Shown here: positions 25,786 through 45,929 of the stretch, piece by piece | How the letters are laid out: each line of letters begins with the position of its first letter | How positions within the stretch are numbered: position 1 is the first letter of the stretch | Source: Synergistaceae bacterium | Lineage (GTDB): Bacteria; Synergistota; Synergistia; Synergistales; Aminobacteriaceae | Length of the DNA: 60,432 nt | Direction: 5' to 3' | Assembly: GCA_018436785.1 (NCBI GenBank) | Contig: JAHDKR010000003.1 | Coordinates: forward strand, 1 to 60,432 | Program-made: the position numbers and the translations under genes | Notes under the pieces: model-generated | Databases searched by the model: none | The model's input: only the letters and a program-made list of their open reading frames with translations | Told to the model about the DNA's origin: nothing

Positions 25786-26616
25786 ATGAAGCGTCTGCTT
25801 GCATGCGTACTTATGATGAGTATATTTCTTCCCGGCAGCATATCTTTTGCGACAGAAGTGGAAATTGAGCTGCACCCCATAACCACGGAAAAAGAAAAAG
25901 GGCTTATCGACTGGACGCAGAACCATATCGAAGCCACGGGAATGGCGGTCGCACCGAAAAACATGAAGGGCGCACAGGCGAAGGCACTGGCCCGACGCGG
26001 CGCGATCGTCGACCTTCAGCGGAATCTGCTCGAGTTCATGGGCGGAGTGCAGGTCGACGCGAGGACGACCATGGACGATTTCATGGCCGAGGACAGAGTT
26101 CGTTCCGAAGTGCACGGCATGATCAAGAATGTGGAGCTTCTCAAGGGCGAGTGGGACGGGGAGGCCTATACCGTTACCGGGCGGATCAAACTCGCCGAAG
26201 TGCGTTCCATCGTATGCCCCAGGGTTCCCGTCGATACAATCATTATCGAGACCGAACGAAAGGCGCCCGCGCCCAAGGCTTCCGGCAAGTACACCGGCCT
26301 CGTTATCGACGTCCGACACCTTCCGCTGATTCCTTCGGTAACCTTCCGCGTCTTCGACGAAAGCGGCAGAGCCGTCTACGGCGTCGAGTTCGCGAACCAA
26401 GCCTCGATGCTCCAGTCGGGAATCTGCTCCTACTACAACAACATCAACTACGCCCAGGGCGAGCTCCGCGTCGCTCCAAATCCCGTCAAGACCAAAGCGA
26501 TTCGCCTTTCGACCGGGAACGTCGATATCGTCATCCCGAACTCGGCGGCGGCGAAGATCCGCGGCAGCTCGTTCGACTTCCGCAAAGAGTGTAAAGTGCT
26601 CCTTGTCGTGAAATAG
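25786..26616 (+). CDS. LPP20-domain exported protein (rightward arm)
   Basis: 276 residues. A Sec signal peptide (~1-22) has no lipobox Cys, so it is probably soluble periplasmic or surface. Residues ~55-140 carry the LPP20 pattern: AQAKALARRGAIVDLQRNLL, then VRSEVHGMIKNVELL and GEAYTVTGRI. The C-terminal domain (~165-276) starts YTGLVIDVRHLPLIPSVTFRV, a module common in uncharacterised LPP20/FlgP-type proteins. AGGGGG lies 8 bases before ATG 25786. It is the first gene of the operon. Paralogues lie at 37298-38230 (same architecture) and 31040-31516 (LPP20 half only). Confidence 0.8.
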   Translation: MKRLLACVLMMSIFLPGSISFATEVEIELHPITTEKEKGLIDWTQNHIEATGMAVAPKNMKGAQAKALARRGAIVDLQRNLLEFMGGVQVDARTTMDDFMAEDRVRSEVHGMIKNVELLKGEWDGEAYTVTGRIKLAEVRSIVCPRVPVDTIIIETERKAPAPKASGKYTGLVIDVRHLPLIPSVTFRVFDESGRAVYGVEFANQASMLQSGICSYYNNINYAQGELRVAPNPVKTKAIRLSTGNVDIVIPNSAAAKIRGSSFDFRKECKVLLVVK

Positions 26617-26619
26617 GAC

Positions 26620-27789
26620 ATGCGTATACGGAATTTCTTTTTTGTTTTTCTGATGATCCTCTTGTCGGCCGCTCCTGCGTTCTCCGCAGGAGTTCAGGCC
26701 GCGGGGGAGCTCATCAAAGTCGAAGCCGAGGGGTTCGCTCCGATAAAGGGCGGCGACAAGAACGGCGCGAGGGAAGCCGCCAAGCGTTCCGCCTACAGGG
26801 ACGCGCTTGAAAAGGCTCTTGGAGCGTACGTCACCGGAATCACCGAGATGCAGAACTTCGAGGTGGTCAAGGACAAGGTCTTTTCTCAGACGACGGGAAT
26901 CGTCAAGAAGTTCGATATCGTCAGGGAGAAGATCGGGGACGACGGGATACTCTACATCACGGCGATCTGCCATGTTGCGCAAGCGGCTCTTGACGGGGTT
27001 CTCGGGCCCGCCGTGCTCGACGCTCTCGGCAACCCGAGAGTGATGGTGCTGCTCGACGAGCGAATCGGCGACAAAAGATCTTTTCTCTCCACCGCCGAAA
27101 GCGAAACGATGCGCGTCTTCGAGAAGGCCGGCTATTTGCTCGTCGATTCGACGCAGGCGAGCATCCTGAAGAACATCGACCTCGACGCCGTTCGTGAAAG
27201 CGCTGATCCGGAGGTCTTTCGACAACTGGCCCGCGACTTCCAGGCGGATGTCCTGATCTACGGGAAGGCCTATGCCAGTTCCTTCGCAAACCAGGTCGTC
27301 AGCGGGGTCAGAATCTACGGTGTGCGAAGCACGGTCCAGCTGAAGGCGGTGCTGGCGAACACAGCATATCAACTGGGATCGGACGCAGTCGAGGAGAAGA
27401 CGAAGGGCGTCTCCGTCGAGGACGGGGCGATCAAGGGATTGCAGCCCGCCGCCATGAAAGCGAGCGGCTCCATCGTGCACAAGATAGCCTACACGCTCAT
27501 TTCCGGCTCCGCAGGCGGCATACCGGGAAGGACGATCAAGGTAAAGATCTCCAACATGACGTTCAAGGACGTAAAAGAGCTCAAGGAGAGCCTCCAGGAT
27601 GTCCAGGGGGTGACTGCCGTCTATCAGAGGCTGTTCAGAAGCAAGCGACTCGAATTGGACGTCGTGTCCGACATGACTGCGGAGGAGATCGCCTCCTTGC
27701 TCTCCGACCTTGGATACGATATTGAAGACCTGTCGTCCGTTACAGTGGAGGGCGTCCTGAATGAAAAAACAGGTGAGAAGACTCCGTAG
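26620..27789 (+). CDS. FlgT-like exported protein (rightward arm)
   Basis: 389 residues with a signal peptide cleaved after AFSA. Residues ~28-115 match FlgT_N style: LIKVEAEGFAPIKGGDKNGAREAA, then GAYVTGITEMQNFEVVKDKVF. The middle (~125-300) resembles a TolB/FlgO-type alpha-beta domain, starting at NPRVMVLLDERIG. The C-terminal domain (~305-385) starts at IKVKISNMTF. In Vibrio, FlgT helps build the H ring around the flagellar basal body. No flagellar gene is present here. It starts 3 bases after the LPP20 gene. Its paralogue is at 36154-37293. Confidence 0.75.
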   Translation: MRIRNFFFVFLMILLSAAPAFSAGVQAAGELIKVEAEGFAPIKGGDKNGAREAAKRSAYRDALEKALGAYVTGITEMQNFEVVKDKVFSQTTGIVKKFDIVREKIGDDGILYITAICHVAQAALDGVLGPAVLDALGNPRVMVLLDERIGDKRSFLSTAESETMRVFEKAGYLLVDSTQASILKNIDLDAVRESADPEVFRQLARDFQADVLIYGKAYASSFANQVVSGVRIYGVRSTVQLKAVLANTAYQLGSDAVEEKTKGVSVEDGAIKGLQPAAMKASGSIVHKIAYTLISGSAGGIPGRTIKVKISNMTFKDVKELKESLQDVQGVTAVYQRLFRSKRLELDVVSDMTAEEIASLLSDLGYDIEDLSSVTVEGVLNEKTGEKTP

Positions 27790-28270
27790 AGAAAAAGCGC
27801 CGCGTCCTTTCAGGTTTTTCCTCGTCCTGTGCGTCTGCATAGCGACTGCCGGAGCGTTGACGGCGGTGGTCCCGGCGCTCTTTTCGGAAAACGGGGAACC
27901 GGGCGCGGAGACGCAGTTGGTCGGGGAAGAAAATCCGGAGATGCCGCGGGACCCGAGGATACCGGAAACGGTGAACTCCGGGCTTCTCCTCCGTGAGCAG
28001 GGGATTGCTACAGCGGAGGGCGTCGGCCGCATCCCGGAAGATACGGCTCAGGGAAGGCTGCTCGGCCGAAGGGCCGCGCTGACCGACGCGAGGCGAAATC
28101 TGCTGGTGCTACGGCAAAAACTGCTCGATGGAAAGTTCGATGTACGGTCGGTGTCAGGGAAGATCGCCGAAGTACGAATTTATTCGGAGAAAACGGACGG
28201 AGCCCTCTACTACCTGAAGGTCGACGTTCCGTTGTACAGACTGATGAAGGGGGATGTTCCGGTTGAATAA
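27761..28270 (+). CDS. small LPP20-like anchored protein (rightward arm)
   Basis: 169 residues. The basic N-terminus KKQVRRLRREK is followed by a hydrophobic segment (~18-40) that may remain as a membrane anchor. The C-terminal part carries AQGRLLGRRAALTDARRNLLVL, the core LPP20 helix pattern, and a YYLKVDVPLYRL strand. It overlaps the FlgT-like gene by 29 bases and the next gene by 17 bases, so the three are translationally coupled. The equivalent in the other arm is 35680-36150. Confidence 0.65.
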   Translation: MKKQVRRLRREKAPRPFRFFLVLCVCIATAGALTAVVPALFSENGEPGAETQLVGEENPEMPRDPRIPETVNSGLLLREQGIATAEGVGRIPEDTAQGRLLGRRAALTDARRNLLVLRQKLLDGKFDVRSVSGKIAEVRIYSEKTDGALYYLKVDVPLYRLMKGDVPVE

Positions 28271-28781
28271 ATGGACAAAGTTTTTTACGCTTGCGGTAAT
28301 GGCCGGTTTGCTGTGCCTTTTCGGCACGAGCGCATTTGCGGAGCTTCCGAAAGGATCGATCGCAGTGCTGACGAAGGGGCCGTCGGTTCAGCATTCGGCC
28401 GCCGTCGCCTCCATACTGACCAGGGAGCTTCTCGCGAAGGGGCACAAGGTAGTCGATCCGAAACGCCTTGATGCAATCCGCCGCAGCAAGGCCGCCGCTC
28501 TGGCTCTCGAAGGGAATGCGGACGCTATCATCAAGTTGAGCAAACAGTACGGTTTCAGCACGATGATCACTGCCCAGCTTCAGGCGGGAAAGCCCGTTCT
28601 GAACGAGTTCCAGCTCTACACCGGAACCTCGTCCCTCGCGATCATGGTGATGAGTTCGGGCGGCCAGATGATCTACGCCGACACAGTGATGGGAAAGCAG
28701 GTCGGATACACGCCGGACGAAGCCGCGCAGAAATCAATAGAGGCCGCCGCGAAGCTCGCGGTGCAAAAGATGCTCCAATAG
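28254..28781 (+). CDS. 'ELPKG' exported protein of unknown function (rightward arm)
   Basis: 175 residues. A signal peptide ends near SAFA, and the mature part begins ELPKGSIAVLTKGPSVQHS. It then follows an alpha/beta pattern with LTRELLAKGHKVVDPKRLDAIRRSKAAALALEGN, quoted only to show the periodicity near residues 55-85, and ends GYTPDEAAQKSIEAAAKLA. The fold recalls the TolB/CsgG N-terminal half. TTG 28263 has better spacing to the GGGGG element than ATG 28254. Its paralogue at 34889-35674 carries an extra C-terminal domain. Confidence 0.65.
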   Translation: MFRLNKWTKFFTLAVMAGLLCLFGTSAFAELPKGSIAVLTKGPSVQHSAAVASILTRELLAKGHKVVDPKRLDAIRRSKAAALALEGNADAIIKLSKQYGFSTMITAQLQAGKPVLNEFQLYTGTSSLAIMVMSSGGQMIYADTVMGKQVGYTPDEAAQKSIEAAAKLAVQKMLQ

Positions 28782-28812
28782 TGCGGAACGCGCCGGAGCG
28801 AAGGAGAATCTC

Positions 28813-29436
28813 ATGAAAAAGAAACTTTTCGCGTGCGTTCTTGCGATCGTCTGCCTCTCGATCTTCGCGGGGGCTGCGCTCGCTGCGCCCCTCTCCCAGA
28901 GGCCGAGGCTTTCCGTGCGCCAGTTCGACAACAAGGCGGGGTGCGGTATTCCGGCGGCGGCGATCACCGAGATGATGACGACCGAGCTGTACAAGTCTGG
29001 ATTATTCAACTTGCTGGAACGCGAGAAGCTGAACTATGTGGCGGAAGAGATCAAACTGGGCCAGTCGGGACTGGTGGACGAATCGACGGCGCCCGAACTC
29101 GGTAAGATAAAGGGCGCGCAGTACACGATGACAGGCGCGGTGACCCTCTTTTACTACAACTCGACCGGAGGCGTCGTCTACCTGCCGGGGATCGTAGGCG
29201 GTCTGCTTTCGCGCACGGCGTATGTGACGCTCGACATTCGCATTATCAACACCGCGACGAGCGAGGTTGTCTATGCCGCAGCGGAGCAGGGCGCGGCGAA
29301 TCAGACCGCAGGGGGAGTGGTGTTGCCGATAGTGGGCTTTGGATCAGGCAAGACCGGCGGTTTGCTCGCCACCGCGACGCGCAACTCGGTGATCAAGCAC
29401 GTCGAAACGATGAAGACGGTGAACTGGGAACTGTAG
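28813..29436 (+). CDS. CsgG/FlgO-like exported protein (rightward arm)
   Basis: 207 residues. A signal peptide (~1-25) lacks a lipobox Cys. The CsgG core follows: RLSVRQFDNKAGCG, MMTTELYKSGLFNLLERE, EIKLGQSGLVDE and GKIKGAQYTMTGAVT, then strands up to residue ~195. True curli CsgG is a lipoprotein with two transmembrane beta hairpins. Lack of lipidation and the shorter length point to a soluble FlgO/TolB-N-like relative. GAAGGAG precedes the ATG. No curli genes are nearby. Confidence 0.8.
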   Translation: MKKKLFACVLAIVCLSIFAGAALAAPLSQRPRLSVRQFDNKAGCGIPAAAITEMMTTELYKSGLFNLLEREKLNYVAEEIKLGQSGLVDESTAPELGKIKGAQYTMTGAVTLFYYNSTGGVVYLPGIVGGLLSRTAYVTLDIRIINTATSEVVYAAAEQGAANQTAGGVVLPIVGFGSGKTGGLLATATRNSVIKHVETMKTVNWEL

Positions 29437-29466
29437 ATGTTTTTTATTTTTCGGGGGGGTTCAAAT

Positions 29467-30945
29467 ATGAAGAAATGCTTTGTATTGCTGGCTTTTTGCG
29501 TTCTATTCGTTTACTCCGGGGCTTTCGCCGAAGCTGCGGAACAGAAAATCCGCATCGGCGTCATCGGCTTTGACAGCAAGGCCGAGGGGGTTTCGCAGGA
29601 GCAGGCCGACATAGTAACGGATCTGTTTACCCGTACTCTTGCGAGTTCAAAAACTATCGCGGTCTATGAGAGGGAACGCCTTGCAAAAGTCGGGGAGGAG
29701 ATCAAGCTGAGCATGTCGGGACTCGTCGACATGAGCACTGCGATCGAAGTTGGAAAAATTGCGGGAGTCCAGTACATCTTAATGGGTTCCGTGACTGAAC
29801 TGAGTGAGAAGATGTCGGGCGGAGCAGTTCCGCTTTTCTTTATCCCCGTTGCCGTAGGCGGAGGGGGCCATGAGGCGAAGGCGACCATCGACGTCCGCCT
29901 TATCGACACGACGACGAGCGAGACCCGCCTTGCTCTTTCCGAAAGCGGCACATCCACGAACTCGGCTTCCGCTGTCTCCGTGATGGGGCTTTCGTTCGCC
30001 GAAGCGGAGTTCGGCGGTCTTCAGGCGCGCGCGATAGCGGACGCGGTCAATCGTCTGGCTCACGGAATCCGGTCGGAACTCGGAGGCGAGAGTTCCCACG
30101 TGCTCAACGTGTCCGGGAACGAGGTTGTCATCGATGTCGGTTCGACGATGGGCACAAAGGAAGGGCAGCTGTATCTGGTTTATGCCGAAGGAAAAACGAT
30201 TCTCGGGATGAGCGGAGAGTCTTTGGGGAGAGATAAAATGCCGCTTGCCGTTGTGAAAGTACGGGATGTCGCGAGCGGACACAGCACCTGCGCCGTCGCT
30301 TCCAACTGCAGTCTGAGCCTGGTGCGGCGCGGCGACAAGATCGAGCCGGTCACTGCGGCGAAGGCGAAGACGATGAAGTTCGTCTCCAGCAGGCCTGCGG
30401 CCTCGAGCGAGACCTTTAATCAGATTTTCGGCCCTCAAGGCCAAAGCGGAGCGGTTGCGTCCGTTCCTCAGGATGCCCCGGCGCCGGCGGCGGAGACACC
30501 AGCAAAGCCTGCGGTGCATGAAGACAAAAAAGAAGAGCCCGCGCCGGCGGCAGTATCCTCCGTTGCGTCCGCTCCCCGGAGTTCCGCACCTGTCGCTCCG
30601 GCGGGCGAGGCGAAGAAGATTCCCGGTTTCGATCCCAACACGTCGACCGACGTGAAAGTCATTCAGACATACAACCTGGATATGGGTACATCCAACATGC
30701 TCCGCATCGCCCATGTCAACGCGATGAACTCTCTGAACAGCAGAAAGGTGAAAGTTGCTTACGAGAAGTTCGTCGAGGCGGCGGGCAAGTACGACGGGCA
30801 TTATCTTGCGGCGTACTGGGCGGGAGTGGCGGCGCACCGGCTGAAGAAGGCCGACGACTCCCTCCAGTGGATGAACAGGGCGCTCGCTATCAATCCTCAG
30901 TACCAACCGGCCGCCGACTACAAGAGCAAAAAACTGAAACAGTAG
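29467..30945 (+). CDS. CsgG/FlgO-like protein with C-terminal TPR (rightward arm)
   Basis: 492 residues. Signal peptide cleaved after GAFA. A CsgG-type domain (~25-210) contains VYERERLAKVGEEIKLSM, SGLVDMST and GVQYILMGSVTE. A beta-rich region (~215-330) with EVVIDVGSTMGTKEGQLYLV resembles FlgT_C/SH3-like folds. An Ala/Pro-rich linker (~335-395) precedes one or two TPR units at the C-terminus (AAYWAGVAAHRLKKADDSLQ). A protein scaffold role is likely. ATG 29467 follows a run of seven G. The counterpart at 32914-34080 has more TPRs and no linker. Confidence 0.75.
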   Translation: MKKCFVLLAFCVLFVYSGAFAEAAEQKIRIGVIGFDSKAEGVSQEQADIVTDLFTRTLASSKTIAVYERERLAKVGEEIKLSMSGLVDMSTAIEVGKIAGVQYILMGSVTELSEKMSGGAVPLFFIPVAVGGGGHEAKATIDVRLIDTTTSETRLALSESGTSTNSASAVSVMGLSFAEAEFGGLQARAIADAVNRLAHGIRSELGGESSHVLNVSGNEVVIDVGSTMGTKEGQLYLVYAEGKTILGMSGESLGRDKMPLAVVKVRDVASGHSTCAVASNCSLSLVRRGDKIEPVTAAKAKTMKFVSSRPAASSETFNQIFGPQGQSGAVASVPQDAPAPAAETPAKPAVHEDKKEEPAPAAVSSVASAPRSSAPVAPAGEAKKIPGFDPNTSTDVKVIQTYNLDMGTSNMLRIAHVNAMNSLNSRKVKVAYEKFVEAAGKYDGHYLAAYWAGVAAHRLKKADDSLQWMNRALAINPQYQPAADYKSKKLKQ

Positions 30946-30953
30946 CAAACTAT

Positions 30954-31011
30954 CCGCCCCCGTCGGTTCGGCCCTGCGGGGGCGGCGCTGTATCCCGCGC
31001 TTGAACGCGGG
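30954..31011 (+). terminator. two hairpins between the CsgG-TPR and short LPP20 genes
   Basis: CCGCCCCCG/CGGGGGCGG and CCCGCG/CGCGGG form consecutive stems without T-runs. They could stabilise upstream mRNA or partly attenuate the last gene. Confidence 0.45.
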
Positions 31012-31039
31012 AAGATCGACATCTTAGGAGGTCATGACA

Positions 31040-31516
31040 ATGAATACCCGTCTCTTTCATCGCTCCAATGCTCTTTCGATATCCGTACGCGTTCTGCTTG
31101 TGCTTCTGTTCGTCCTTGCCGTTCAAACCGCCGGAATAGCGGCGGAAACCGAAACGGAGGTCGAGAAGGAAAAAGCGCTCATCGACTGGGGCCAGAACTA
31201 CATCGAGGGCTCCGGCATGGCCGTCGCTCCGGAAGGCACAACGGGCGCCCAGGCAAAGGCCCTTGCCCGCAGAGGCGCGATGGTCGATCTGCAGCGCAAC
31301 ATGCTGGAATTCGTCTGCGGCGTGCAGATAGACGCCCGTACCGTCATGGACGACTTCATGGCGGAAGACCGTGTGCGCTCCGAGGTCCACGGCCTGATCC
31401 GCAACATCGAGATCCTCAAGGGCGAGTGGGACGGCGAAAGCTACACCGTCACCGGCCGCATCAAGACGGAACAGCTCCGCCTGATCGTGAACTATGTGCT
31501 GACGCTGGTGCGGTAA
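31040..31516 (+). CDS. short LPP20-domain exported protein (rightward arm, third copy)
   Basis: 158 residues. Signal peptide ends near AGIAAE. The LPP20 part closely follows the first gene of this operon (about three quarters identical by eye over ~105 residues, e.g. AQAKALARRGAMVDLQRNML). It ends after LRLIVNYVLTLVR, so the C-terminal YTGL-type domain is absent. ATG 31040 is preferred over 31034 because AGGAGG then lies 8 bases upstream. Probably a recent partial duplicate with a shared terminator behind it. Confidence 0.75.
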   Translation: MNTRLFHRSNALSISVRVLLVLLFVLAVQTAGIAAETETEVEKEKALIDWGQNYIEGSGMAVAPEGTTGAQAKALARRGAMVDLQRNMLEFVCGVQIDARTVMDDFMAEDRVRSEVHGLIRNIEILKGEWDGESYTVTGRIKTEQLRLIVNYVLTLVR

Positions 31517-31517
31517 C

Positions 31518-31562
31518 GAAGAAGGGCGGAGAATGCGATTGCAGCTTTCCCCGCCCTTCTTC
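31518..31562. terminator. bidirectional terminator where the two envelope operons meet
   Basis: GAAGAAGGGCGG and CCGCCCTTCTTC form a 12 bp perfect stem between convergent genes. Confidence 0.8.
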
Positions 31563-31601
31563 TCAAATGCATGTCGTTTTCCGGATATGATCAATCGCTC
31601 C

Positions 31602-32099
31602 TCACACGTCCGGGCCGCCCAGTTCCATCGCGATGTCCTCGGCGAGGAAGCCGGATGCTTCGATAAGCCCCTCCTCGCCCTGGTGAGTGACTGCCTGGAA
31701 TCCCGAGTGCACGACGCCAGTCTCCACGTCGACCAGTCTTGCGGTGAGCGTGAAGACAGAGCCCGTCGCGTTCAGCGATCCGACGATGAGATACTGCGCT
31801 CCCAAAACCTTCCCGACTTTTATCGCCTTCTTCTCGTCGACCAGTCCCGACATTGAGAGCCTGTGCTCCGAGGCGATCTTGTTCATTTGGGAAGCCTCGA
31901 GGACGGTCCACGGCCCCCTGTTGACGAGCGCTCCCCTGACGCGCTCCCCGACAGCGCCGCCGAGGTACGGCATGCACCCTACGGTCTGGAAGTCGGGGAT
32001 TGCGATGAGCATTTCGGCCGAAGAGAGAAGAGGAGCGGCGAGGATGCACAGTCCCATGAGCAACAGCGAAAGCAGCAGGCGCGTTTTTTTACCGTTCAT
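31602..32099 (-). CDS. CsgG/FlgO-like exported protein (leftward arm)
   Basis: 165 residues. Signal peptide ends in LLSSAE. The CsgG-type core follows: MLIAIPDFQTVGC, VLEASQMNKIASEHRLSM, SGLVDEKKA and GAQYLIVGSLNATG, then a strand with ARLVDVETGVVHSGF. It is shorter than E. coli CsgG and has no lipobox, so a soluble role is likely. ATG 32099 follows GGAGGG; an upstream ATG at 32138 overlaps the preceding gene. It is the last gene of the leftward operon. Confidence 0.78.
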   Translation of the reverse strand: MNGKKTRLLLSLLLMGLCILAAPLLSSAEMLIAIPDFQTVGCMPYLGGAVGERVRGALVNRGPWTVLEASQMNKIASEHRLSMSGLVDEKKAIKVGKVLGAQYLIVGSLNATGSVFTLTARLVDVETGVVHSGFQAVTHQGEEGLIEASGFLAEDIAMELGGPDV

Positions 32100-32134
32100 C
32101 CTCGAACCCTCCTTTGCAAAAAACAGCTCCGCGA

Positions 32135-32887
32135 TCATGCCGCCCTGAAGAACGAGCGTATCAGGCGAGCCAATCCATCAACTTGAATCTTCAACTTGGC
32201 GATGGCGTCTTTCAGCCCGGTAACCTCGCCGTCGACGAAGACCTTCCCGGAGGCGAATTCAAGCTCTTTGAGCGTCTGCTTTGCTTCGTTCGGCATCTGT
32301 GCCGTGGTGTACGCGCGCGCCTTGTGGAAGCGGAGAACGTCGCCGAGGCGGGTCCGCCCCTCGAGGATGCCTTTCGCGTCGCGGACCAGCAGCCTGTCGG
32401 TCAGTATGTCCTTTCCGAGTTTGTCCTCCATCGTGATAATTGTTCCGTAGTCGCCCTGTCCTCCGGCGTGAAGGGAAACCTCCCCGGCGACCAGTGTTCT
32501 CAGGCGTTCGCTGTCTTTCCAGAATTGGACCGACGCGCCGTAGCATCTGTCCAAAACGGGGAGCGCGAGATCGCGTCCCTGTTCGTACTCGCCGTTCCGC
32601 ATCAGGCTCGCTCCGCCGACATAGGATGCGATACACCCTCCTTCGCCGCTTACGGTTGTTGCAAGTCGAATCATCCGGTCAAGATTGCGTCCGCTGAGCG
32701 TTCCCTCGTTCAAAAAAATCTGTACCAGTTTGTCGATTTCCTTCTGATCGGCCGCCGAGGGAGTGCTGTCGCTGCCACCGGAACCTCCGGTGCCGCCGCC
32801 TCCTCAGCCGAACCCCGCGACGGGCGCCAGAAGCAGCGCGCCGCCAAGTACAAAAACGCTCAGAAGAAGTACAAATTTCTTTCTCAT
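32135..32887 (-). pseudogene. putative lipoprotein with helical repeats, interrupted by in-frame TGA at the lipobox
   Basis: From ATG 32887 the frame encodes a signal peptide ending LLAPVAGFG, then TGA (32804-32806), then continues open with GGGGTGGSGGSDS and a ~220-residue helical, TPR-like body down to 32135. A glycine run directly after the signal peptide is typical of lipoproteins (compare LLGGCGGG at 60145), and TGA is one base from a Cys codon. The simplest reading is a nonsense mutation or base error that removed the lipobox Cys. Starts inside (e.g. TTG 32713) could yield only an unexported fragment. It sits in-operon between two CsgG-like genes. Confidence 0.65.
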
Positions 32888-32913
32888 TACCGCCACATCC
32901 TTTCTGTTCTCGA

Positions 32914-34080
32914 TCACTGTTTGGGAAGCAAATCCTCCAGTTTCTTCGCAAGCGCCGCATCTATTGTCTTCAGGGCGGAAAGCTGTTCTTTCGCTCCCTG
33001 AAGGTTTCCCCGCATGATCTGGGCAGCGCCCAGAAGGAAGCGGAGATTGCCGTTGTTCGGCTGTAGCCGGAGCCCCGAAAGCAGTATTCCCGCAGCTTCG
33101 TCCGCCGCGCCGTTCTCAAGCAGAAGCTGTCCGAGGGCCAGATAGGCCGGAATATAGGTCTGGTCGATCTGAATGGCCTCCAGGAAGTAGTCGGCCGCCT
33201 CCTCGACCCGTTTTCTGTTCTTGAACGCCGACCCCTTCAGAAAGAGCGCTTCGACGAGTTGTGGATCGAGTTCGAGCGCTTTGTCCAAGGGCGGCGTGGC
33301 TTTGTGGTTGTCCCCAAGGAGAAAGTACGCTTTGCCGACGAGCAGGTGTGCCTCCGCGAACGACGGTTCCCACGTGACAGCCTGCTGGGCCGCGAGCAGA
33401 GCGTCCGAGTAGCGCTTTGTCTGGAAGTGGAGCCCCGCGACGATGAAGCGGAGCAGTCCGTTTCTCGGGCTGAGCTGCGTCATCTTTTCCCAGAACGGAA
33501 GCGACTTGCGGTACTCTCCCAGGTTATAGTACCCCAACGCCTCGTAGAGGTAGTACTTGTAGTCGCTCGTCGGATCTCCGGGCGCGGGGGCGTCGCCGCT
33601 GATGAAGGCCAGAATGTCGGAGGCCAGGTTTCGCGATACGAGCGTCGTTTCGTCCTCTCCCTGTTTCGAGGTTCGTTCGAAGCTCGCGAGCACACGACCG
33701 CTCTCCACGTCGACAAGCCGCGCCGTGGCCACGAGCAGGGCCCCGAATCTGCTGACCGCGCCGAGGATGAAGTAGCGCGCGCCGACGAGTTTTCCCGCCT
33801 TCGCCGCCGTGGCGGTTTCCACGACGCCGGACATGGCGAGCCGCTGCTGACGGGCGACCTCGGCCAGTCGGGATCGTTCAACGAGCGTGATGTCACGGTT
33901 CCCTGCGAGCGAGGTGGAGACGATATCGCCGACCGTCGCGCCGAGGTGAAAGCTCGTTCCCTGGGCGAGGAAAGGCTGCACGGCGACGATCATTGAAGCC
34001 GCGAAAGCCCTCCCCGGCAGTGCGAGAAGTGTCAGCATCATCAGCACCGAGAAAGCCGATATGTTTCGCCTGCCGTTCAT
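32914..34080 (-). CDS. CsgG/FlgO-like protein with TPR array (leftward arm)
   Basis: 388 residues. Signal peptide ends in GRAFAA. A CsgG-type domain (~28-180) has MIVAVQPFLAQGTSF, LVERSRLAEVARQQRLAM, SGVVETATA and GARYFILGAVSRFG. About five TPR units follow (~200-365), e.g. EALGYYNLGEYRKSLPFWEK and AHLLVGKAYFLLGDNHKA. TPRs suggest partner binding in the periplasm. ATG 34080 follows GGAGAGGAGG. The counterpart in the other arm is 29467-30945. Confidence 0.8.
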   Translation of the reverse strand: MNGRRNISAFSVLMMLTLLALPGRAFAASMIVAVQPFLAQGTSFHLGATVGDIVSTSLAGNRDITLVERSRLAEVARQQRLAMSGVVETATAAKAGKLVGARYFILGAVSRFGALLVATARLVDVESGRVLASFERTSKQGEDETTLVSRNLASDILAFISGDAPAPGDPTSDYKYYLYEALGYYNLGEYRKSLPFWEKMTQLSPRNGLLRFIVAGLHFQTKRYSDALLAAQQAVTWEPSFAEAHLLVGKAYFLLGDNHKATPPLDKALELDPQLVEALFLKGSAFKNRKRVEEAADYFLEAIQIDQTYIPAYLALGQLLLENGAADEAAGILLSGLRLQPNNGNLRFLLGAAQIMRGNLQGAKEQLSALKTIDAALAKKLEDLLPKQ

Positions 34081-34118
34081 TGTCGGAGCGCCTCCTCTCC
34101 GCCGTCTCGCGCCGCTTC

Positions 34119-34838
34119 TCATCTGTTCTTGCTGCTCCATCTGTGGCTGACCGCGTCGTAGGTGTACACCGTGTCCGCGGTGAAGATGGACGCCTTGTAC
34201 CCGTCGATAATGCATGCCTGAGGCGAAATCCCCTCCTTGACCACCCAATCATGGATCGTCATGTCGTAGAGCACGAGGTCGTTGTCCGACCAAGCTGCCG
34301 CAAGCACGTCGCCCGCCTGCGCCTTTTTCAGCGCGCCGTAGGGGAAGAACTGGGACGAAAGCCATTTTTTCAGCACCGGATCATACACCACAAGGCCTTC
34401 TTCGCCGGTCAGTATCGTCATTCCGCGCGAAAGCGACGCGCCGGTGAGTTTCCATGGAATGTAGTCGCTCCGAATCCATTCCTGCTTCTTCGCGTCGAAG
34501 ATCGAGGCCTCGTTTTCGTTCCAGACGAGCGCGTACTCGTCGGAGAGGGACCCCAGAAGCGTCCGGAAGTCGCTCTCCGAGAGCCACTGCTGGGTGCGCA
34601 CGTCGTAGACCCAGGCCGCATCCTCGCTCCAGACGAGGGCAAGATGGTTGTGGACGCGGTATCCGCTGGTCCTGAAATCGTTGAGGATGGACTGGCGTTT
34701 CAGCACCGGGTCGTACACCCGCACGGTGTGTGCGTCGATGAAGACCTGTACTTCAGCGAAAACCGGAAGCGCCGTCGCGATAAGGAGTATGCAGAGGACT
34801 GCGGAAAGTCCGAGAGATATCCGTTTCAGTGTATTCAT
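34119..34838 (-). CDS. beta-propeller-like exported repeat protein
   Basis: 239 residues. A signal peptide ends near PVFA. The mature protein is built of about five ~42-residue repeats, each with a 'vYDp..kkWl' core: VRVYDPVLKRQSI, AWVYDVRTQQWLS, ASIFDAKKQEWIR, LVVYDPVLKKWLS, LVLYDMTIHDWVV and VYTYDAVSHRWSS. This looks like blades of a small beta-propeller. No counterpart exists in the rightward arm. It lies between the ELPKG-type and CsgG-TPR genes, so it is probably a partner or ligand-binding lid of the assembly. Confidence 0.65.
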   Translation of the reverse strand: MNTLKRISLGLSAVLCILLIATALPVFAEVQVFIDAHTVRVYDPVLKRQSILNDFRTSGYRVHNHLALVWSEDAAWVYDVRTQQWLSESDFRTLLGSLSDEYALVWNENEASIFDAKKQEWIRSDYIPWKLTGASLSRGMTILTGEEGLVVYDPVLKKWLSSQFFPYGALKKAQAGDVLAAAWSDNDLVLYDMTIHDWVVKEGISPQACIIDGYKASIFTADTVYTYDAVSHRWSSKNR

Positions 34839-34888
34839 AGGATACCAGCTCCCTTCATGTGTGTTTCTGAACTTCTTCATTTATTCCC

Positions 34889-35674
34889 CTATTCCCCGAC
34901 AAGACGGAGCGTGTTTCCCTCGACGGTCTCCTCCTTCAGGTCCGGGCGTTTGGCGAGGAGGGCTGCGAGGAGTTGCCTGGCCGAACCGGAATAGGAAACG
35001 TCGATCTCCGCCCTGCCTCCGGCGAAACGGGAGACCGAGGCGTTCGAAGCGCCCGCGTCGCGGCAGCTTGCGGCAAGGGCGTGCGCCTCGGCGAACGAAC
35101 GCGCCGGAGCGATCACCAAAAACGTTGCTCCGGCCGAATCCGGCGGTTGAGGAGGCGTCTTGCCGAGGAGCGACGCCGCCGCGGAGCGTGTTGCAACCTC
35201 CACGGCTTTTCGCGCCGCCTCTTCCGCCGTGTACCCTATCTCCTTTGCGGAGGCGCTTCCGGCGGCGACCTGACGCGCGTTGGAAGCCGTGCACGCCGTC
35301 GCCGACACCGTCGCGGTCGCGGTGAAGAGACCGAATTCGTTCCGCACCGGAGACGGCACGGCGACGGAGCCCGAAAGGAGGACGGAGAAGCCGAATGTCC
35401 TGCCCAGCGCCATAATCGCCTCGACGTTCCCTTCGAGCGCCAGGATGGCCGCCTTGTTCTGGCGGATCCGTTCGAGCTGTTTTTCGTCGACGGCCTTGTA
35501 CCCTTCATCCAGAAGCGCCCGGATCAGTATCGATCTCGCGAGGGGGGCATGCGACGTCCCCTTCACAAGGACGGCGATAGTCTTGCCCTTCGGCAGTTCG
35601 GCCCGCGCCTCGCCGGACGGAAGAAGCGCAAAGAAAAAGATGACGGCCATGCAGACTGCGAGCATTTTTTTCAT
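34889..35674 (-). CDS. 'ELPKG' exported protein with extra FlgT-type C-terminal domain
   Basis: 261 residues. Signal peptide cleaved near GEARA. The mature start ELPKGKTIAVLVKGTSHAP and the later LERIRQNKAAILALEGNVEA match the 175-residue protein at 28254-28781. After GYTAEEAARKAVEVATRSA it has an extra ~80-residue domain (FLVIAPARSFAEAHALAASC) that resembles the C-terminal domain of the FlgT-like proteins (FKVTVSDLSFAEARSLRDSL). Shared domains suggest the two products work in one complex. Function unknown. Confidence 0.65.
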   Translation of the reverse strand: MKKMLAVCMAVIFFFALLPSGEARAELPKGKTIAVLVKGTSHAPLARSILIRALLDEGYKAVDEKQLERIRQNKAAILALEGNVEAIMALGRTFGFSVLLSGSVAVPSPVRNEFGLFTATATVSATACTASNARQVAAGSASAKEIGYTAEEAARKAVEVATRSAAASLLGKTPPQPPDSAGATFLVIAPARSFAEAHALAASCRDAGASNASVSRFAGGRAEIDVSYSGSARQLLAALLAKRPDLKEETVEGNTLRLVGE

Positions 35675-35679
35675 GGCAT

Positions 35680-36150
35680 TTACCTCACATCGGCGCGGAC
35701 GATTCTGCTCTCGGTGAAGAATCGCTTCAGCGGAACCGTCACCTCGACTGTGTACACCCCGTCCTTCACGCCCTGAAAATCGACCTGTCCGTCGACGACA
35801 TCGCCCTCTATCTCAATGGAGGTGATCTTCTCCGGAAGTCCGTGACGAATCTCATAAAGGAGACAGAGAAGATTGCGGCGCGCATCCGTCAGCGCCCCCC
35901 GTTTTGCCAGCATCTGGTCCTGCGGGGAGGTTGAAGGAAGAGGGGCCTTCCCCTGCGACGTCACGGACTCGCCCTTCCAGTCGACGACGCCGAAGCGAAA
36001 GACCTGAATATCTTCCGCAACGCTCTTCGACTCGACGATGGACTGAAAGAGAGCCGCCAAATCCTCCGTTCCCTCCGCAGGAAGCGACGCGAAGGCTGCG
36101 GAGGAGAAGAAAACGACCAGAAGGCACACAAGTACTCTGCAGACTCTCAA
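35680..36150 (-). CDS. small LPP20-like exported protein (leftward arm)
   Basis: 156 residues starting at TTG 36150. A signal peptide (~1-22) ends in SSAAFA. The centre has the LPP20 pattern QMLAKRGALTDARRNLLCL, and the C-terminus has a GVYTVEVTVPLKRF strand, matching LYYLKVDVPLYRL in the rightward-arm protein at 27761-28270. The neighbouring genes on both sides are 3-5 bases away, so the operon is tightly packed. Confidence 0.68.
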   Translation of the reverse strand: MRVCRVLVCLLVVFFSSAAFASLPAEGTEDLAALFQSIVESKSVAEDIQVFRFGVVDWKGESVTSQGKAPLPSTSPQDQMLAKRGALTDARRNLLCLLYEIRHGLPEKITSIEIEGDVVDGQVDFQGVKDGVYTVEVTVPLKRFFTESRIVRADVR

Positions 36151-36153
36151 CGT

Positions 36154-37293
36154 CTATCGCCCCTTTCGTCCGTTCACCGTCCCTGCGGTAATACCGGTGA
36201 TTTCTACGCCGAGCGCCTCCAGCGCGATGGCGATCTCCTCCGAAGAGGTTTCCGCCGACACATCCAGTTCCAGCGTCCGGTTCGCGTAGGCGCGCTGGTA
36301 GACTCCGTTGACGCCGCGTACCTCTCCCAGACTGTCTCGAAGCGACCTGGCCTCGGCGAATGAAAGATCGCTCACGGTGACCTTGAACGATCTTCCGGGG
36401 ATGCTGCCGGAAGCGCCGCTGACGAGCGCGTAGGCGACTGTGTGCAGCAGCGAGCCGGCCATGCGCGGGGACAGCTTTTGAAACGCCTTCATTGCGCCGT
36501 CGTTCGGCGACGTTCCCTGCACTCTCAGTTCGGAGCCCTCGGCGCCGATGATATGGGCCGTCTGGGTGATGATTGCTTTGAGCTGAAGCTGCGAGTTGAC
36601 TGCATAGAGCACGACGCCGGAAACTTTCTGTTTCGTCGCTGTGCTCGCCTGCGCCTTTCCGTGGATCAGCACGTCGGACTGAAAACTCCTTGCAAGCTCC
36701 TGAAGCACGGCAGTGTCGCCCGATATTTTCGCGGCTTCGATCTCTCCCTTGCGGATCGCCCCTGCCTGTCCCGGGTCGACGAGCATGTACCCAGCCTTCT
36801 GAAACGCTTTCAGTATTTCTCCCTCCGCTGTGGAGAGGAACTGCCGCTCGCCGTCGATAACTTCGTCGATGAGCACCATGATCCTCGGATTGCCTAGAGC
36901 GTCGATCACAGCGGGGCCGAGAACGCCGTCGAGCGTCGACGCCGAGACGGTGCACTGCGCGGTCAGGCGAAGAATGCCGTCGTTAGTTTGTTCTTCCTTC
37001 ACATTCTCCGTGGCTGTCACCAGCCCCTCCGAACGGGAGAAGACCGTGTCGCGGACCACCTCGAAGTCTTTCATCTCGGTGATGCCCTGAACCCGTGCGC
37101 CGATTCCCTTTTCGAGCGCGTTTCTGTAGAGTTGACGCCGCGCTTCTTCCCGCGCCCGTGCGACGTCTCCGTTCACGATCGCGGCCATTCCCTCCGCTTC
37201 GACGACGATCTTCTCCGTTCCGGAGGCGAGCGCCGGGAGAAGGAGCAGAAGAAGCGCGCAGGTACACAGTACGGAGAGGAGTGTCCGTCTCAT
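36154..37293 (-). CDS. FlgT-like exported protein (leftward arm)
   Basis: 379 residues with a signal peptide ending in ALASG. The FlgT_N-like region (~25-110) has IVVEAEGMAAIVNGDVARAR, then GARVQGITEMKDFEVVRDTVF. The middle domain starts NPRIMVLIDEVIDGERQF, and the C-terminal domain starts FKVTVSDLSFAEARSL. It aligns over its whole length with 26620-27789 and shares phrases such as LDGVLGPAVIDALGNPR. It follows the LPP20 gene by 4 bases. Confidence 0.75.
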   Translation of the reverse strand: MRRTLLSVLCTCALLLLLLPALASGTEKIVVEAEGMAAIVNGDVARAREEARRQLYRNALEKGIGARVQGITEMKDFEVVRDTVFSRSEGLVTATENVKEEQTNDGILRLTAQCTVSASTLDGVLGPAVIDALGNPRIMVLIDEVIDGERQFLSTAEGEILKAFQKAGYMLVDPGQAGAIRKGEIEAAKISGDTAVLQELARSFQSDVLIHGKAQASTATKQKVSGVVLYAVNSQLQLKAIITQTAHIIGAEGSELRVQGTSPNDGAMKAFQKLSPRMAGSLLHTVAYALVSGASGSIPGRSFKVTVSDLSFAEARSLRDSLGEVRGVNGVYQRAYANRTLELDVSAETSSEEIAIALEALGVEITGITAGTVNGRKGR

Positions 37294-37297
37294 AATG

Positions 37298-38230
37298 TCA
37301 CCGTTTAACCACTGTCACGCGGCAGGGAACGCGAAAGTCGTACGAGCTGCCGCGCACCTTCGCAGCGTCCGCGTTGCTGATGACGATATCGACGTTCTGC
37401 GGCGCGACGGTCCGCACCGCTTTTGCGACGAGAGGTGTGGAGGCGATTCGCGGAGCGCCCTTCGCATAGGCGAGGTTTGTGTGGTAGTCGCACAGACCGG
37501 AGGCGAGGAAGCGCTCCGCGTCGGCAAAGTCGATACCGTACACTTCCTTGCCGTTTTCGTCGACGACGCGGAAGATCATCGCCGGGATGAGAGGGAGATG
37601 CGTCGCGTCGATCAGCAGCCCCGATGCGCTGATCTTGCCTGCGGGAGGTGTCGGGGGAACGGGTTTCTGTCCCGGAGCCTTGGGAAGTCCCGGCAGCACG
37701 GCGGTGCGCACTTTTTCGAGTTTCACGCGCCCTGTGACGGTGTAGATCTCGCCGTCCCAGGACGCGTCGGAAATCTCGATTCCCTTGATGAGCCCCTGAA
37801 CCTCCGTCCGTACGGTATCGTTCGCCATGAAGTCGGTCATCGTCGTCTTCGCGTCCACGCGCACGCCCTGGATTGCCTCAAGAAGATTGCGCTGGAGGTC
37901 GACGATGGCCCCCCTGCGCGCAAGCAGTTTTCCCTGCGCGGTCTTTTCCTTGCCGGTCGGGGCGACGGCCTGTCCCGAGGCCTCGACGTAATCGTCGGTC
38001 CAGTTGACGCGGGCGAATTCAGTGCCGACGATCAGCGCGGACGGGGATGGAGCGGGGAGCGTTCCAGTATCGAATGCAGTGGAAACGTCGACCGCGGGCG
38101 CGGCCGGCACGGAATCTCCTGCCTCAGGCAGGTCTTCGATCGGCGGAAGGAACACCTCCTCCGTGGCAAACGCCGGAACTCCTAAGAGCAACAGGAACAG
38201 AAGACAAGAAACGAAGCGTTTTTGAGACAT
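37298..38230 (-). CDS. LPP20-domain exported protein (leftward arm)
   Basis: 310 residues. Signal peptide ends in VPAFA. An acidic, Ala/Pro-rich stretch (~20-70) is followed by an LPP20 domain (~80-180: GKLLARRGAIVDLQRNLLEA, VRTEVQGLIKGIEI, GEIYTVTGRVKL). The C-terminal domain contains SGLLIDATHLPLIPAMIFRV and ends with an RGSSYDFRVPCRVTVV strand, nearly the same ending as 25786-26616. GAGGAGGAG precedes ATG 38230. It is the first gene of the leftward operon. Confidence 0.8.
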   Translation of the reverse strand: MSQKRFVSCLLFLLLLGVPAFATEEVFLPPIEDLPEAGDSVPAAPAVDVSTAFDTGTLPAPSPSALIVGTEFARVNWTDDYVEASGQAVAPTGKEKTAQGKLLARRGAIVDLQRNLLEAIQGVRVDAKTTMTDFMANDTVRTEVQGLIKGIEISDASWDGEIYTVTGRVKLEKVRTAVLPGLPKAPGQKPVPPTPPAGKISASGLLIDATHLPLIPAMIFRVVDENGKEVYGIDFADAERFLASGLCDYHTNLAYAKGAPRIASTPLVAKAVRTVAPQNVDIVISNADAAKVRGSSYDFRVPCRVTVVKR

Positions 38231-38383
38231 CGCATACTCCTCCTCTCTAGTTTTTCGAGGAAGATGGGCCGAGGTTTATGTGCGGAGAGAAAAGAAAATG
38301 TATACCATTCTCGCGTCTTCCTCGTACACTATGATACTCTATTTACTTCGAATTTTCAACCGAAGCGCGATGTTGCTTTAATA
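38231..38383 (-). promoter_or_regulatory. upstream region of the leftward envelope operon
   Basis: This moderately AT-rich stretch must hold the operon promoter. On the minus strand a GGTATACAT box (around 38301-38309) could be a -10. Arms CGAGGAAGA (38256-38264) and TCTTCCTCG (38316-38324) could pair in the transcript leader. The TGTTCGAACA box of the other arm is absent. Confidence 0.35.
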
Positions 38384-42317: not shown

Positions 42318-42529
42318 TCTTCAAATCCCTCCCGAATCAGAGTGTAGGACTGCTCAAAGTGTTGCTGAAATCTTGCAGTATTGTAACACAAGGAAAGGGG
42401 CGAGAAGCGAGGGGGAAAGAACGACGTATGGTGTCTCTTGGGTATGATAACGTGGGGAAAAGGCTTAGGTACGCTCTGCTTGCGAAGCGAGTACAAGGAA
42501 GATCCTCGTGAGAAACCTGTGTGTTTCCG

Positions 42530-42558
42530 TTGTCATCCTCAGATGTCTTGTTTATAAT
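42530..42558 (+). promoter_or_regulatory. promoter of the Sel1-repeat gene
   Basis: TTGTCA (42530-42535) and TATAAT (42553-42558) are spaced by 17 bases, about 105 bases before ATG 42664. The rest of the 346-base gap 42318-42663 shows no gene. Confidence 0.7.
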
Positions 42559-42663
42559 GAGTCTCAAGAAGTCATTGCCATCGTGAAAAAGCATCATGAA
42601 TGTATATCAGGCCCGCTCGCCTCCAAGGCGGCCACACCACTTTTGAACGGAGGAAAAACGCTC

Positions 42664-44826
42664 ATGTCAAAAAAAATGACAGCGCTCTTCTGCACCCTGA
42701 TCTTTCTGTTCGCACTCGTCCACGCGCCCGTCCGCGCAGAAGCGCAGGAAGACTACGACCCCCAGTTCACCATGCTCACGCTCAACATGGCGATCGTCTC
42801 GGTGTACAACATCGTCAGCACGCAGGACCGCATCGTGCTGGACCAGGAGTACGAGAACATCATCAACAACCTGAAGCTGGGGAACATCGAGGACGACTAC
42901 GAGATCAAAGCCCTCTACGACGAGCTGATGCTCATCATCTCCAACACCAGGCTCAGAGAAGAAGAGAAGGTCAGATTCCTGGAGAAGTTCGACCGGCGCG
43001 AGAAAGAAGCCATCGTTGGAGCGATCTCCGGAATACGCGCCTATGGAGGAGATCCCTGGAGTTTTTTAGGGAGCCTGCTCACATCGAGTGTGTCGGCGTA
43101 TTTCAGCTACAGGGATTCGATCAACCAGATGCAGTACGAACTCGGGGACGAAATGTGGCAGCTTCGAAAAGAGCAGGTAGAGGACTTCGACGATCTTCAG
43201 CGACGGCTGCTGAGCTCCTCGTGGTCGCTGCTACGAAAGTACCGCCTCCCAGACGAGTACCGCATCACCCAGCGCGATCTGGACGATTTTAGCAAGGCAG
43301 TTCAGGAGCAGGACAAGAGTCGCGCCGTCCGTATGTTCAAAGCGCTGGAGGCGAACTTCAAGGCCTACCCCACCTTCTGGTACTTCTACGGCAGGGCGGC
43401 GATGATGAACAGCGACGAAAAGCTTGCGGAGAAGTGCTTCGAGGAGTTCGAGCGAGTCTGGCGTCCGGTGTTGCGCCAGGACCCGTACAAGCTGGAAGTC
43501 GCCAAGCACAGGGTTGAGTCGCTGGTGAAACGCCACGCTCCCAAAGAGGAGATAATGGAACAGCTCGCCATCGTCGGTGAACACGCTCCTCGGGCCAACT
43601 GGAACGCCAAGCTCTTCCTCGGTGTAATGCACTTCGCCCTGGGCGAGAAGAAGGCTGGCATCGAATTCGTCGAGGAGAACATCTTCTTTGACATTGAAAA
43701 AGACCTGAGCGCGCCGATCCTCCGCTCAATGGAGCAGGACCGGCTGGATATGTCCCAGTTGGGAAGCGAGCTTCAGTCGGCCTTGCAGGAACGTGAAAAA
43801 ATCGCGGAGTATACTGCTGACGCCGAGAAAGGTGATGCTGTTGCTCAGTATAATTTGGGGGTTATTTATGTAGATGGAATTGCAGTTTCGAAAGATTATC
43901 TTCAGGCAGAAAAGTGGTTCCGAAAGTCTGCTGAACAGGGGCATTCTGTAGCTCAGTTTTTATTGGGCGTTATGTATGCACAAGGCGAAGGCGTGCCCCA
44001 AGATGAAAGGCAAGCGGTGGATTGGTGGAGAAGGAGCGCTGAACAAGGATCTGATGTCTCCCAGGAGAGGCTTGGTATGGCGTACTTAAAAGGAAAAGGG
44101 GTACCTCAAGATTTCTACCAAGCTGCAAAGTGGTTTCGTGCGTCTGCTCAACAAGGAAATGCACAAGCACAAATAAACCTTTCCGCGCTTTATTTTTCTG
44201 GTCAAGGGGTTCCCCAGGATGATAAACAGGGAATGGCTTGGTGTCGTAAAGCTGCTGAACAAGGATTTGCTGAAGCTCAATATAGACTGGGTCTTTTTTA
44301 TAAGGATGGATACAAAATGCCTCAGGATGATAGACAAGCGGTGGAGTGGTATCTGAAGGCAGCTGTACAGGGACATGCTGGTGCACAAACACAGTTGGGA
44401 GTAATGTATGCGACTGGAAAGGGAGTTTCTGAGGATGATGTTAAAGCAGTGGAGTGGCACCGAAAAGCTGCTGAGCAGGGTCATGTTTTAGCCCAGCTCA
44501 GATTGTCCGCTATGTATGCCTTGGGGGAAGGAGTCGCAAAGGATTATCGCCAAGCAGTAAATTGGGGCAGGAAAGCTGCTGAACAAGGGGATGTAACAGC
44601 ACAGTATCTGATGGGAGTGTTCCTTCCAGATGCAGAAGGAGAAAATGTGAACCACTCCGAAGTATACTTTTGGTATTATCTTGCCTTTCTTAATGGTCAT
44701 CCAGATGCAAAAGAAATGGTTGATTCAATAGAAGAGAATGCGAACCAACTCAATTTATCGAAGGATGATATTGAAAAAGCTCGGCGAAGAGCGACGAAGA
44801 TATCTGAACAACAGAAGAAAAAATAG
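42664..44826 (+). CDS. exported Sel1-repeat protein with composite base content
   Basis: 720 residues. A signal peptide ends in APVRA before EAQEDYDPQF. Residues ~30-375 are a helical, charged region I do not recognise, ending in a TPR-like stretch. From ~380 there are about eight Sel1 units of 36 residues with the pattern 'A..QLG.MY..G.GV..D...A..W..KAAEQG'. The first part of the gene is GC-rich like its neighbours; from about 43800 the codons become strongly AT-rich. The repeat part may have come from another source. Sel1 repeats bind proteins, often in envelope or host-interaction settings. GGAGG supports ATG 42664. Confidence 0.82.
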   Translation: MSKKMTALFCTLIFLFALVHAPVRAEAQEDYDPQFTMLTLNMAIVSVYNIVSTQDRIVLDQEYENIINNLKLGNIEDDYEIKALYDELMLIISNTRLREEEKVRFLEKFDRREKEAIVGAISGIRAYGGDPWSFLGSLLTSSVSAYFSYRDSINQMQYELGDEMWQLRKEQVEDFDDLQRRLLSSSWSLLRKYRLPDEYRITQRDLDDFSKAVQEQDKSRAVRMFKALEANFKAYPTFWYFYGRAAMMNSDEKLAEKCFEEFERVWRPVLRQDPYKLEVAKHRVESLVKRHAPKEEIMEQLAIVGEHAPRANWNAKLFLGVMHFALGEKKAGIEFVEENIFFDIEKDLSAPILRSMEQDRLDMSQLGSELQSALQEREKIAEYTADAEKGDAVAQYNLGVIYVDGIAVSKDYLQAEKWFRKSAEQGHSVAQFLLGVMYAQGEGVPQDERQAVDWWRRSAEQGSDVSQERLGMAYLKGKGVPQDFYQAAKWFRASAQQGNAQAQINLSALYFSGQGVPQDDKQGMAWCRKAAEQGFAEAQYRLGLFYKDGYKMPQDDRQAVEWYLKAAVQGHAGAQTQLGVMYATGKGVSEDDVKAVEWHRKAAEQGHVLAQLRLSAMYALGEGVAKDYRQAVNWGRKAAEQGDVTAQYLMGVFLPDAEGENVNHSEVYFWYYLAFLNGHPDAKEMVDSIEENANQLNLSKDDIEKARRRATKISEQQKKK

Positions 44827-44889
44827 AAATAGAGTTAGCAAATGGTGTTTGAAAATAGCCGATTGTTCTATTTTATTGTTGGAGGGTTG

Positions 44890-45735: not shown

Positions 45736-45871
45736 ATATGTTCGATAATTTGCAGAGCTTGAAGGTGTGTCCGGGAGTCCATGCATGAGATGGACGGAGA
45801 AACGCACTGAGTAGTTGCATTGGATAATGCCACCCGGAGATGAGGAGGTCGTTGTACCCTCGATCGCTTCC

Positions 45872-45914
45872 TTGCAAAACCTCTTTGCTTATGTATAATT
45901 GAATAGGTTTTGCA
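45872..45914 (+). promoter_or_regulatory. AbiE promoter flanked by a 10 bp inverted repeat
   Basis: TTGCAA (45872-45877) and TATAAT (45894-45899) are 16 bases apart. TGCAAAACCT (45873-45882) and AGGTTTTGCA (45905-45914) are perfect inverted arms that enclose the -10. AbiEi antitoxins are known to repress their promoter through inverted repeats, so this is a strong operator candidate. Confidence 0.75.
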
Positions 45915-45929
45915 CAGGAGGTATTTCGT

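Follow-up and report, generated by a model that had tools for sequence, protein, structure and literature searches.

The closest described relatives of the proteins studied here are the FlgO/FlgP/FlgT rings of Vibrio (PDB 3w1e, 8z5n), the FlgP basal disk of Campylobacter (PDB 9hmf; PMC12222027), the curli pore CsgG, the type VIIb secretion system and the spirochaete proteins Tp0624 and LipL46. We analysed a stretch of 60,432 nucleotides from a Synergistaceae bacterium (assembly GCA_018436785.1, contig JAHDKR010000003.1), in the following called the window, in which two convergent operons encode exported proteins resembling parts of these systems. In our best reading, the operons represent an outer-envelope ring or portal module that may be reused by different machines.

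As in the Vibrio rings, a protein with a FlgT-like fold (R2), proteins with a FlgP-type domain (R1 and L1) and CsgG/FlgO-type partners occur within one operon. Unlike the Vibrio genes, however, the module was not seen beside flagellar genes, and one genome carries it without any flagellar match; in addition, R1 and L1 carry a further domain at the C-terminus and lack a visible lipobox cysteine, and the module includes CsgG-type pore proteins. With the Campylobacter disk protein, as covered by the accessible part of its description (PMC12222027), R1 and L1 share an SHS2/LPP20 domain with an insert after the helix, but this domain is fused to a second one and no disk genes lie near the module. 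R5 and R6 resemble CsgG in their domain and in an insertion of the size of its first hairpin, the one hairpin covered by the comparison, but no lipobox cysteine was seen, and R6 has a TPR tail. The type VIIb components EssC, YukD/EsaB and WXG100 occur in gene clusters of relatives, but EssB and EsaA were not found there, with F2, F4 and CsgG-type genes (see below) present instead, and EssC is absent from the genome of the window as far as sequenced. Among the spirochaete proteins, Tp0624 resembles the predicted model of R1 (4.6e-8), a model of low confidence (predicted local distance difference test, pLDDT, 62.7), and R2 and L2 match the LipL46 model (1.9e-18 and 2.4e-20) at 66 and 73 bits, far under its cut-off of 400.

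Two Paralogous Operons Encode Predicted Ring- and Pore-Type Proteins

The source genome of the window (G000; 3.33 Mb, 82.6% complete) has its nearest relatives among the Synergistota. In the window, the right arm comprises the open reading frames R1 to R7 on the forward strand (25786-31516) and the left arm L1 to L8 on the reverse strand (38230-31602), the two converging between 31516 and 31602. Four paralogous pairs stand in the same order in both arms, L1/R1 (46% identity, E 4.6e-84), L2/R2 (49%, 7.3e-113), L3/R3 (32%, 3.2e-10) and L4/R4 (43%, 9.1e-32), confirming an earlier reading of the locus (the sequence-only reading), which had described two convergent, paralogous operons with the same opening order.

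R1 (25786-26616, forward) is an exported protein with an LPP20/FlgP-type domain and a C-terminal 'YTGL' domain, and resembles flagellar lipoproteins of the FlgP type; L1 (37298-38230, reverse) combines this type of domain with an 'SGLL' domain. The profile of the R1/L1 family matched the C. jejuni motor scaffold lipoprotein 9hmf_C at 1e-12 and, more weakly, chains named FlgP (8.6e-4 for 9yds, and 0.011). The accessible part of PMC12222027 ties ring formation in the FlgP-type family to an insert between the helix and the second strand, and judged by eye an insert after the helix is found in R1, R7 and L1 and, in shorter form, in R3, being among the best conserved segments of R1/L1. The name LPP20, given to R1 and L1 in the sequence-only reading, thus stands as far as the FlgP-type match and the ring-forming insert are concerned, but not by the Pfam LPP20 model, which L1 matched below the cut-off (13.9 bits, E 0.076, versus 25.9) and R1 not at all. 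R7 (31034-31516, forward) is a second copy of the ring domain of R1 alone (76% identity over 105 columns). The small LPP20-like proteins R3 (27761-28270, forward) and L3 (35680-36150, reverse) are also similar to L1, at 7.2e-6 and 1.7e-7, respectively.

R2 (26620-27789, forward) and L2 (36154-37293, reverse) match the FlgT_N domain at scores straddling the Pfam cut-off of 28.8 bits, with 27.7 and 27.2 bits in one scan and 28.8 and 30.9 bits, flagged as over the cut-off, in another. The AlphaFold2 model of R2 (pLDDT 78.5) has the three-domain FlgT fold, and its top two Foldseek matches were an LPHT-ring chain (3.2e-11) and FlgT (4.6e-11), with low overall template modelling scores against both; TolB, PelC and CsgG fit its middle domain about equally well. 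By its predicted fold R2 is therefore FlgT-like, and the earlier assignment of FlgT-like proteins to both arms was borne out. R4 (28254-28781, forward) is an exported, conserved protein of an unnamed family, here called F4 or 'ELPKG', with similarity to part of L2 (1.1e-4), and its counterpart L4 (34889-35674, reverse) carries an extra C-terminal domain in the alignment with R4. No significant solved relative of the F4 family was obtained in a search of the PDB.

The remaining genes are mostly of the CsgG/LpoB type. R5 (28813-29436, forward; 87 bits), R6 (29470-30945, forward; 82.7 bits), which has a C-terminal TPR-like part, L6 (32914-34080, reverse; 37.7 bits), which has TPR repeats (TPR_2, 8.6e-19), and L8 (31602-32138, reverse; 32 bits) all exceed the Pfam CsgG cut-off of 20.8 bits, in agreement with the claim that CsgG-like proteins with and without TPR occur in both arms. 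L6 probably starts at ATG 34080 and not at TTG 34248. L8 also matches LpoB (28.4 bits), and the profile of its family does so at 6.2e-8. Searches of the PDB with the single sequences of R5 and R6 returned nothing useful; their family profiles match CsgG at 4.6e-5 and 2e-4, respectively, and align to it through the first hairpin region. At what we take to be the position of the first membrane hairpin in CsgG, an insertion of 28-33 residues is found in 37 of 45 R5 family sequences, the other eight not being measurable, whereas the L8 type has a spacing of 10 residues. A hairpin-sized insertion is likewise present in R6, while L6 and L8 of the window have 10 residues each when read by eye; the spacing was not measurable in 15 of 56 R6, 3 of 15 L6 and 1 of 15 L8 sequences. 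Four sequences labelled L8 with a spacing of 27 come from EssC-linked loci, and in the L6 set, which mixes types, the spacing accordingly varies between 10 and 50. The left arm in addition encodes L5 (34119-34880, reverse), an exported kelch/propeller-like protein with a Kelch_1 match below the cut-off (17.2 versus 20.1 bits), whose homologue at locus L024 reaches 31.7 bits.

The Module Is Linked to EssC in Relatives

Across the phylum, two operon types are found, R and L, the latter with eight genes. Of 185 Synergistota genomes, 80 carry the FlgT-like family (F2), some of them from families beyond the order of the window, and 105 lack it; the count of positives takes in weak matches in G099 (2.9e-5) and G102 (3.8e-7) and a fragment in G028. 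The R1 family occurs in 66 of the 185. Within the genus of the window, three genomes (G038-G040) have the R type and one (G041) the L type, and among the five members only the source genome has two FlgT-like copies. In a tree of 70 rows, consisting of F2 sequences from loci L047-L126 with more than 250 residues and more than 150 bits, and the two sequences of the window, L2 paired with the genus-mate G041 and R2 with the genus-mate G040. As the FlgT-like proteins of the two arms pair with different genus-mates, the arms are old paralogous types lying side by side, and this pairing, together with the 46-49% identity, led us to reject a recent tandem duplication.

The profile for EssC (TIGR03928) matched 175 of the 185 genomes; counted as carrying EssC were the 22 with at least 237 bits, 16 of them above the cut-off of the model, as the next genome reached 136 bits and the remaining 153 were at the level of FtsK. 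All 22 have a FlgT-like gene, compared with 58 of the 163 others, and within the genus g10 the gene was found in 14 of 14 EssC genomes versus 12 of 29 others. In 16 of the 22, EssC and the FlgT-like gene share a contig and are no more than 10 kb apart; in the other six they are on different contigs. In 13 of the 16 linked genomes a module gene ends at most 41 bases from EssC on the same strand, while other genes intervene in three. At locus L022, for example, an R-type operon leads directly into an EssC-like gene (FtsK/SpoIIIE 1.4e-56, FHA 1.1e-15), followed by YukD and WXG100 genes, and in the cluster of genome G075 the genes F2 to F4 come first and a CsgG-type gene follows a kinase gene. The EssC clusters hold YukD, WXG100, PP2C, kinase and CHAP proteins. 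YukC/EssB and EsaA were each found in none of the 22 EssC genomes by searches that detected the positive control from B. subtilis. Of the 15 EssC-linked rows in the FlgT tree, 14 fall within one well-supported clade of 31 rows.

This type VII link, which had gone unnoticed in the sequence-only reading, is a new lead. NCBI already names such Synergistaceae proteins EssC, and a type VII survey is, in its accessible part, restricted to Bacillota and Actinomycetota (PMC11217815). Our literature searches returned no published description of the operon itself or of a link between EssC and a FlgT-like/CsgG-type module.

Several genes in these clusters deserve mention. Adjoining EssC are candidate type VII cargo proteins with CHAP domains (locus L047, 384-2074) and with a WXG100-like start (L058, 14754-15626), and at L063 (genome G052, 7990-11685) a repeat-rich Ig-like protein of 1232 residues is encoded between the module genes and EssC. 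Conserved genes for a PP2C phosphatase and/or a Ser/Thr kinase are located downstream of the WXG100 genes at L053, L056, L062 and L058; together with the FHA-bearing EssC, this gene content suggests control by phosphorylation. Outside the Synergistota, an R1-R2-like pair was met on a WOR-3 contig (L046, JAPLUO010000131.1, 9002-11128), where it adjoins caspase-like and DUF4384 genes, with no flagellar gene among the ten genes scanned.

A Proposed Ring Module With and Without a Pore

We give about an even chance to the proposal that the operons are two versions of a FlgT/FlgP-type ring module, of which the right one, with its CsgG-type pore, would serve inner-membrane machines as an export portal. 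In this model, the FlgP- and FlgT-type proteins of both arms would assemble rings beneath the outer membrane. In the R version, the ring would likely be completed by the CsgG-type pore, and ring and pore together would likely act as the export portal. In the L version, LpoB-type proteins would take the place of the hairpin-bearing CsgG type, with the kelch-like L5 and the secreted L7 added, and the result would likely be a ring without a pore, serving some envelope structure as a scaffold or gate. We infer the function from these likenesses, and likewise that ring and pore assemble, what is transported and in which direction, and any export by the copies of the window.

Several observations weigh against this proposal. 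The pore role of R5 and R6 is a prediction from sequence that covers the first hairpin. R2 of the window lies outside the tree clade that holds 14 of the 15 EssC-linked rows. The source genome, incomplete as it is, has no WXG100 match and no EssC, its best match being at FtsK level (115 bits), and an export role of the operons in the window is therefore proposed by analogy. F1 and F3 are missing from many EssC-linked loci, so that the shared set consists of F2, F4 and CsgG-type genes, and all 22 EssC genomes carry flagellar genes as well. A more specific version, which we hold only tentatively, is that the diderm Synergistota replaced the EssB and EsaA of type VII secretion by recruiting a FlgT/F4/CsgG portal of ring and pore; the window would then show the free-standing module twice, once as a pore and once as a poreless ring whose secreted part has selenocysteine directly behind the signal peptide. 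Relatives of EssC with 54-61% identity are filed under Bacillota names, too, which weakens the case for a variant restricted to diderms.

The module may instead be a flagellar outer-membrane disk or H-ring of the FlgO/FlgP/FlgT type, present in Synergistota in two versions, with the EssC-linked copies as a side branch. We regard this as less likely. Part of the evidence points towards flagella. Besides the FlgT-like fold of R2 and the FlgP matches of R1 and L1, flagellar genes were found in 78 of 80 genomes with a FlgT-like gene versus 58 of 105 without (Fisher test, not corrected for phylogeny), and by genus in 27 of 28 versus 14 of 34. FlhA was matched in 128 of the 185 genomes (113 above the cut-off, some matches being fragments) and FlgI in 123; the rod genes (Flg_bbr_C) were searched in nine genomes only, and G056 was counted as flagellated through them. 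The source genome itself has FlhA, FlgI, six Flg_bbr_C matches and two flagellin-type genes. The sequence-only reading, having seen no flagellar or curli genes in the window, had proposed an independent ring or secretion assembly in two versions; the exported FlgT-, LPP20/FlgP- and CsgG-like proteins make such an assembly plausible and strengthen the ring idea, whereas its independence from flagella was not borne out and a lack of flagellar genes does not hold for the genome. On the other hand, 58 flagellated genomes do without a FlgT-like gene. Of the two genomes with this gene but without a flagellar match, one has it as a fragment (G028), and the other (G183, 89% complete) carries a complete L operon but matched none of FlhA, FlgI and Flg_bbr_C. 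Among the neighbours of the module scanned against Pfam, which are part of all, there was no flagellar gene and only one chemoreceptor (L103), so that, as far as these neighbours go, the survey of gene order did not meet the module embedded in a flagellar locus. A site scan with the sigma-28 consensus found nothing similar upstream of either R1 or L1, compared with four distinct sites with 11 of 12 matches in 19 kb surrounding the flagellin gene. A housekeeping envelope scaffold of the LpoB/TolB kind, tying peptidoglycan growth to the outer membrane without any transport, appears improbable, since R5 and R6 retain the CsgG-type insertion, relatives link the module to EssC, and 105 of the 185 genomes lack the FlgT-like gene.

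L7 Is a Candidate Exported Selenoprotein

The left arm contains a further lead that the sequence-only reading had not noticed, an in-frame TGA in L7 (32135-32887, reverse). The frame opens at ATG 32887, encodes a signal peptide, reaches the TGA (32806-32804) and continues to 32135, the choice of this start presuming that the TGA is read through. In alignments made by eye, 11 of 13 distinct homologues keep the TGA at the same position, and the other two have a cysteine at or near it; a sequencing error or a pseudogene was rejected because of this conservation. A pattern for the arrangement, built from L7 genes, matched only L7 genes in 3.1 Mb of DNA, a figure that includes overlaps and duplicates, and it misses some known L7 genes (L036, L031/L078). 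Downstream of the TGA, a stem-loop (about 32777-32793, reverse; stem of seven pairs, loop GGU) is a candidate for an element like the selenocysteine insertion sequence (SECIS). Compared with synonymous shuffles, the stretch of 48 bases that starts at the TGA shows more structure (combined z -3.27), although 3 of 11 sequences go the opposite way; seven control windows gave z from -1.15 to 1.86. In 11 of 11 L7 sequences, a stem of six or more pairs whose loop contains GG lies 14-36 bases past the TGA, the best stem having been picked in each and no null set alongside.

According to the accessible part of PMC5029168, 13 of 14 Synergistetes use selenocysteine and the group is rich in selenoproteins. 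A word search of the main text of a review (PMC13188914) found none of the words lipoprotein, periplasm, signal peptide and secreted. L7 is likely a selenoprotein in which UGA is read as selenocysteine, and a candidate for a new one. Alternatively, the TGA may be a true stop, with a protein lacking the signal peptide starting downstream or with a decaying gene. TGA terminates 5 of the 15 genes of both arms, L7 included, Rfam gave no SECIS match in the L7 region (only a chance-level match to a small nucleolar RNA), and a tRNA-Sec was not found in about 1.2 of the 2.57 Mb of genome G106 or in the other partial genome DNA scanned. MAFFT alignments of the hairpin did not bring the stems into line. 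We nevertheless consider a true stop improbable, as the frame, the place and the TGA itself are conserved or replaced by cysteine as described, the pattern picked out L7 genes only, and the group widely uses selenocysteine.

Operon Boundaries and Neighbouring Genes

The intergenic gaps of the right arm range from -29 to 33 bases, with 88 before R7, and those of the left arm are mostly -4 to 8 bases; L7 is preceded by a gap of 26 bases and L6, provided that it starts at ATG 34080, by one of about 38. Between the arms, a perfect inverted repeat of 12 bases (31518-31529/31551-31562) was read by eye and is likely the shared terminator at which both operons had been said to meet; this claim stands in so far as the repeat is present, but the repeat does not appear among the results of a terminator scan restricted to loops of 3-8. 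Upstream of L1, a sigma-70-like site (38331-38359, reverse; 10 of 12 matches) is weak, as it is a single site where shuffles give 2.9.

An assembly chimera was rejected, as contig L036 (LVBB01000095.1), whose genes are 88-99% identical to those of the window, has the same convergent L8/R7 junction. This contig is filed under a Phycisphaerales bin yet carries the Synergistota operon, probably a binning error. Elsewhere in the window, a Sel1-repeat protein of 772 residues is encoded at 42508-44826, and the G+C content dips to 0.46 at 44001-46000 with an AbiEii-type gene nearby (46523-47455), a possible small mobile island (44001-47500).

Implications for Envelope Biology in Synergistota

For the export of type VII substrates across two membranes, the operon of EssC with FlgT-like and CsgG-type genes names candidate genes. 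The results also suggest that outer-membrane rings of the flagellar type are a reusable module, and L7 points to a family of exported selenoproteins.

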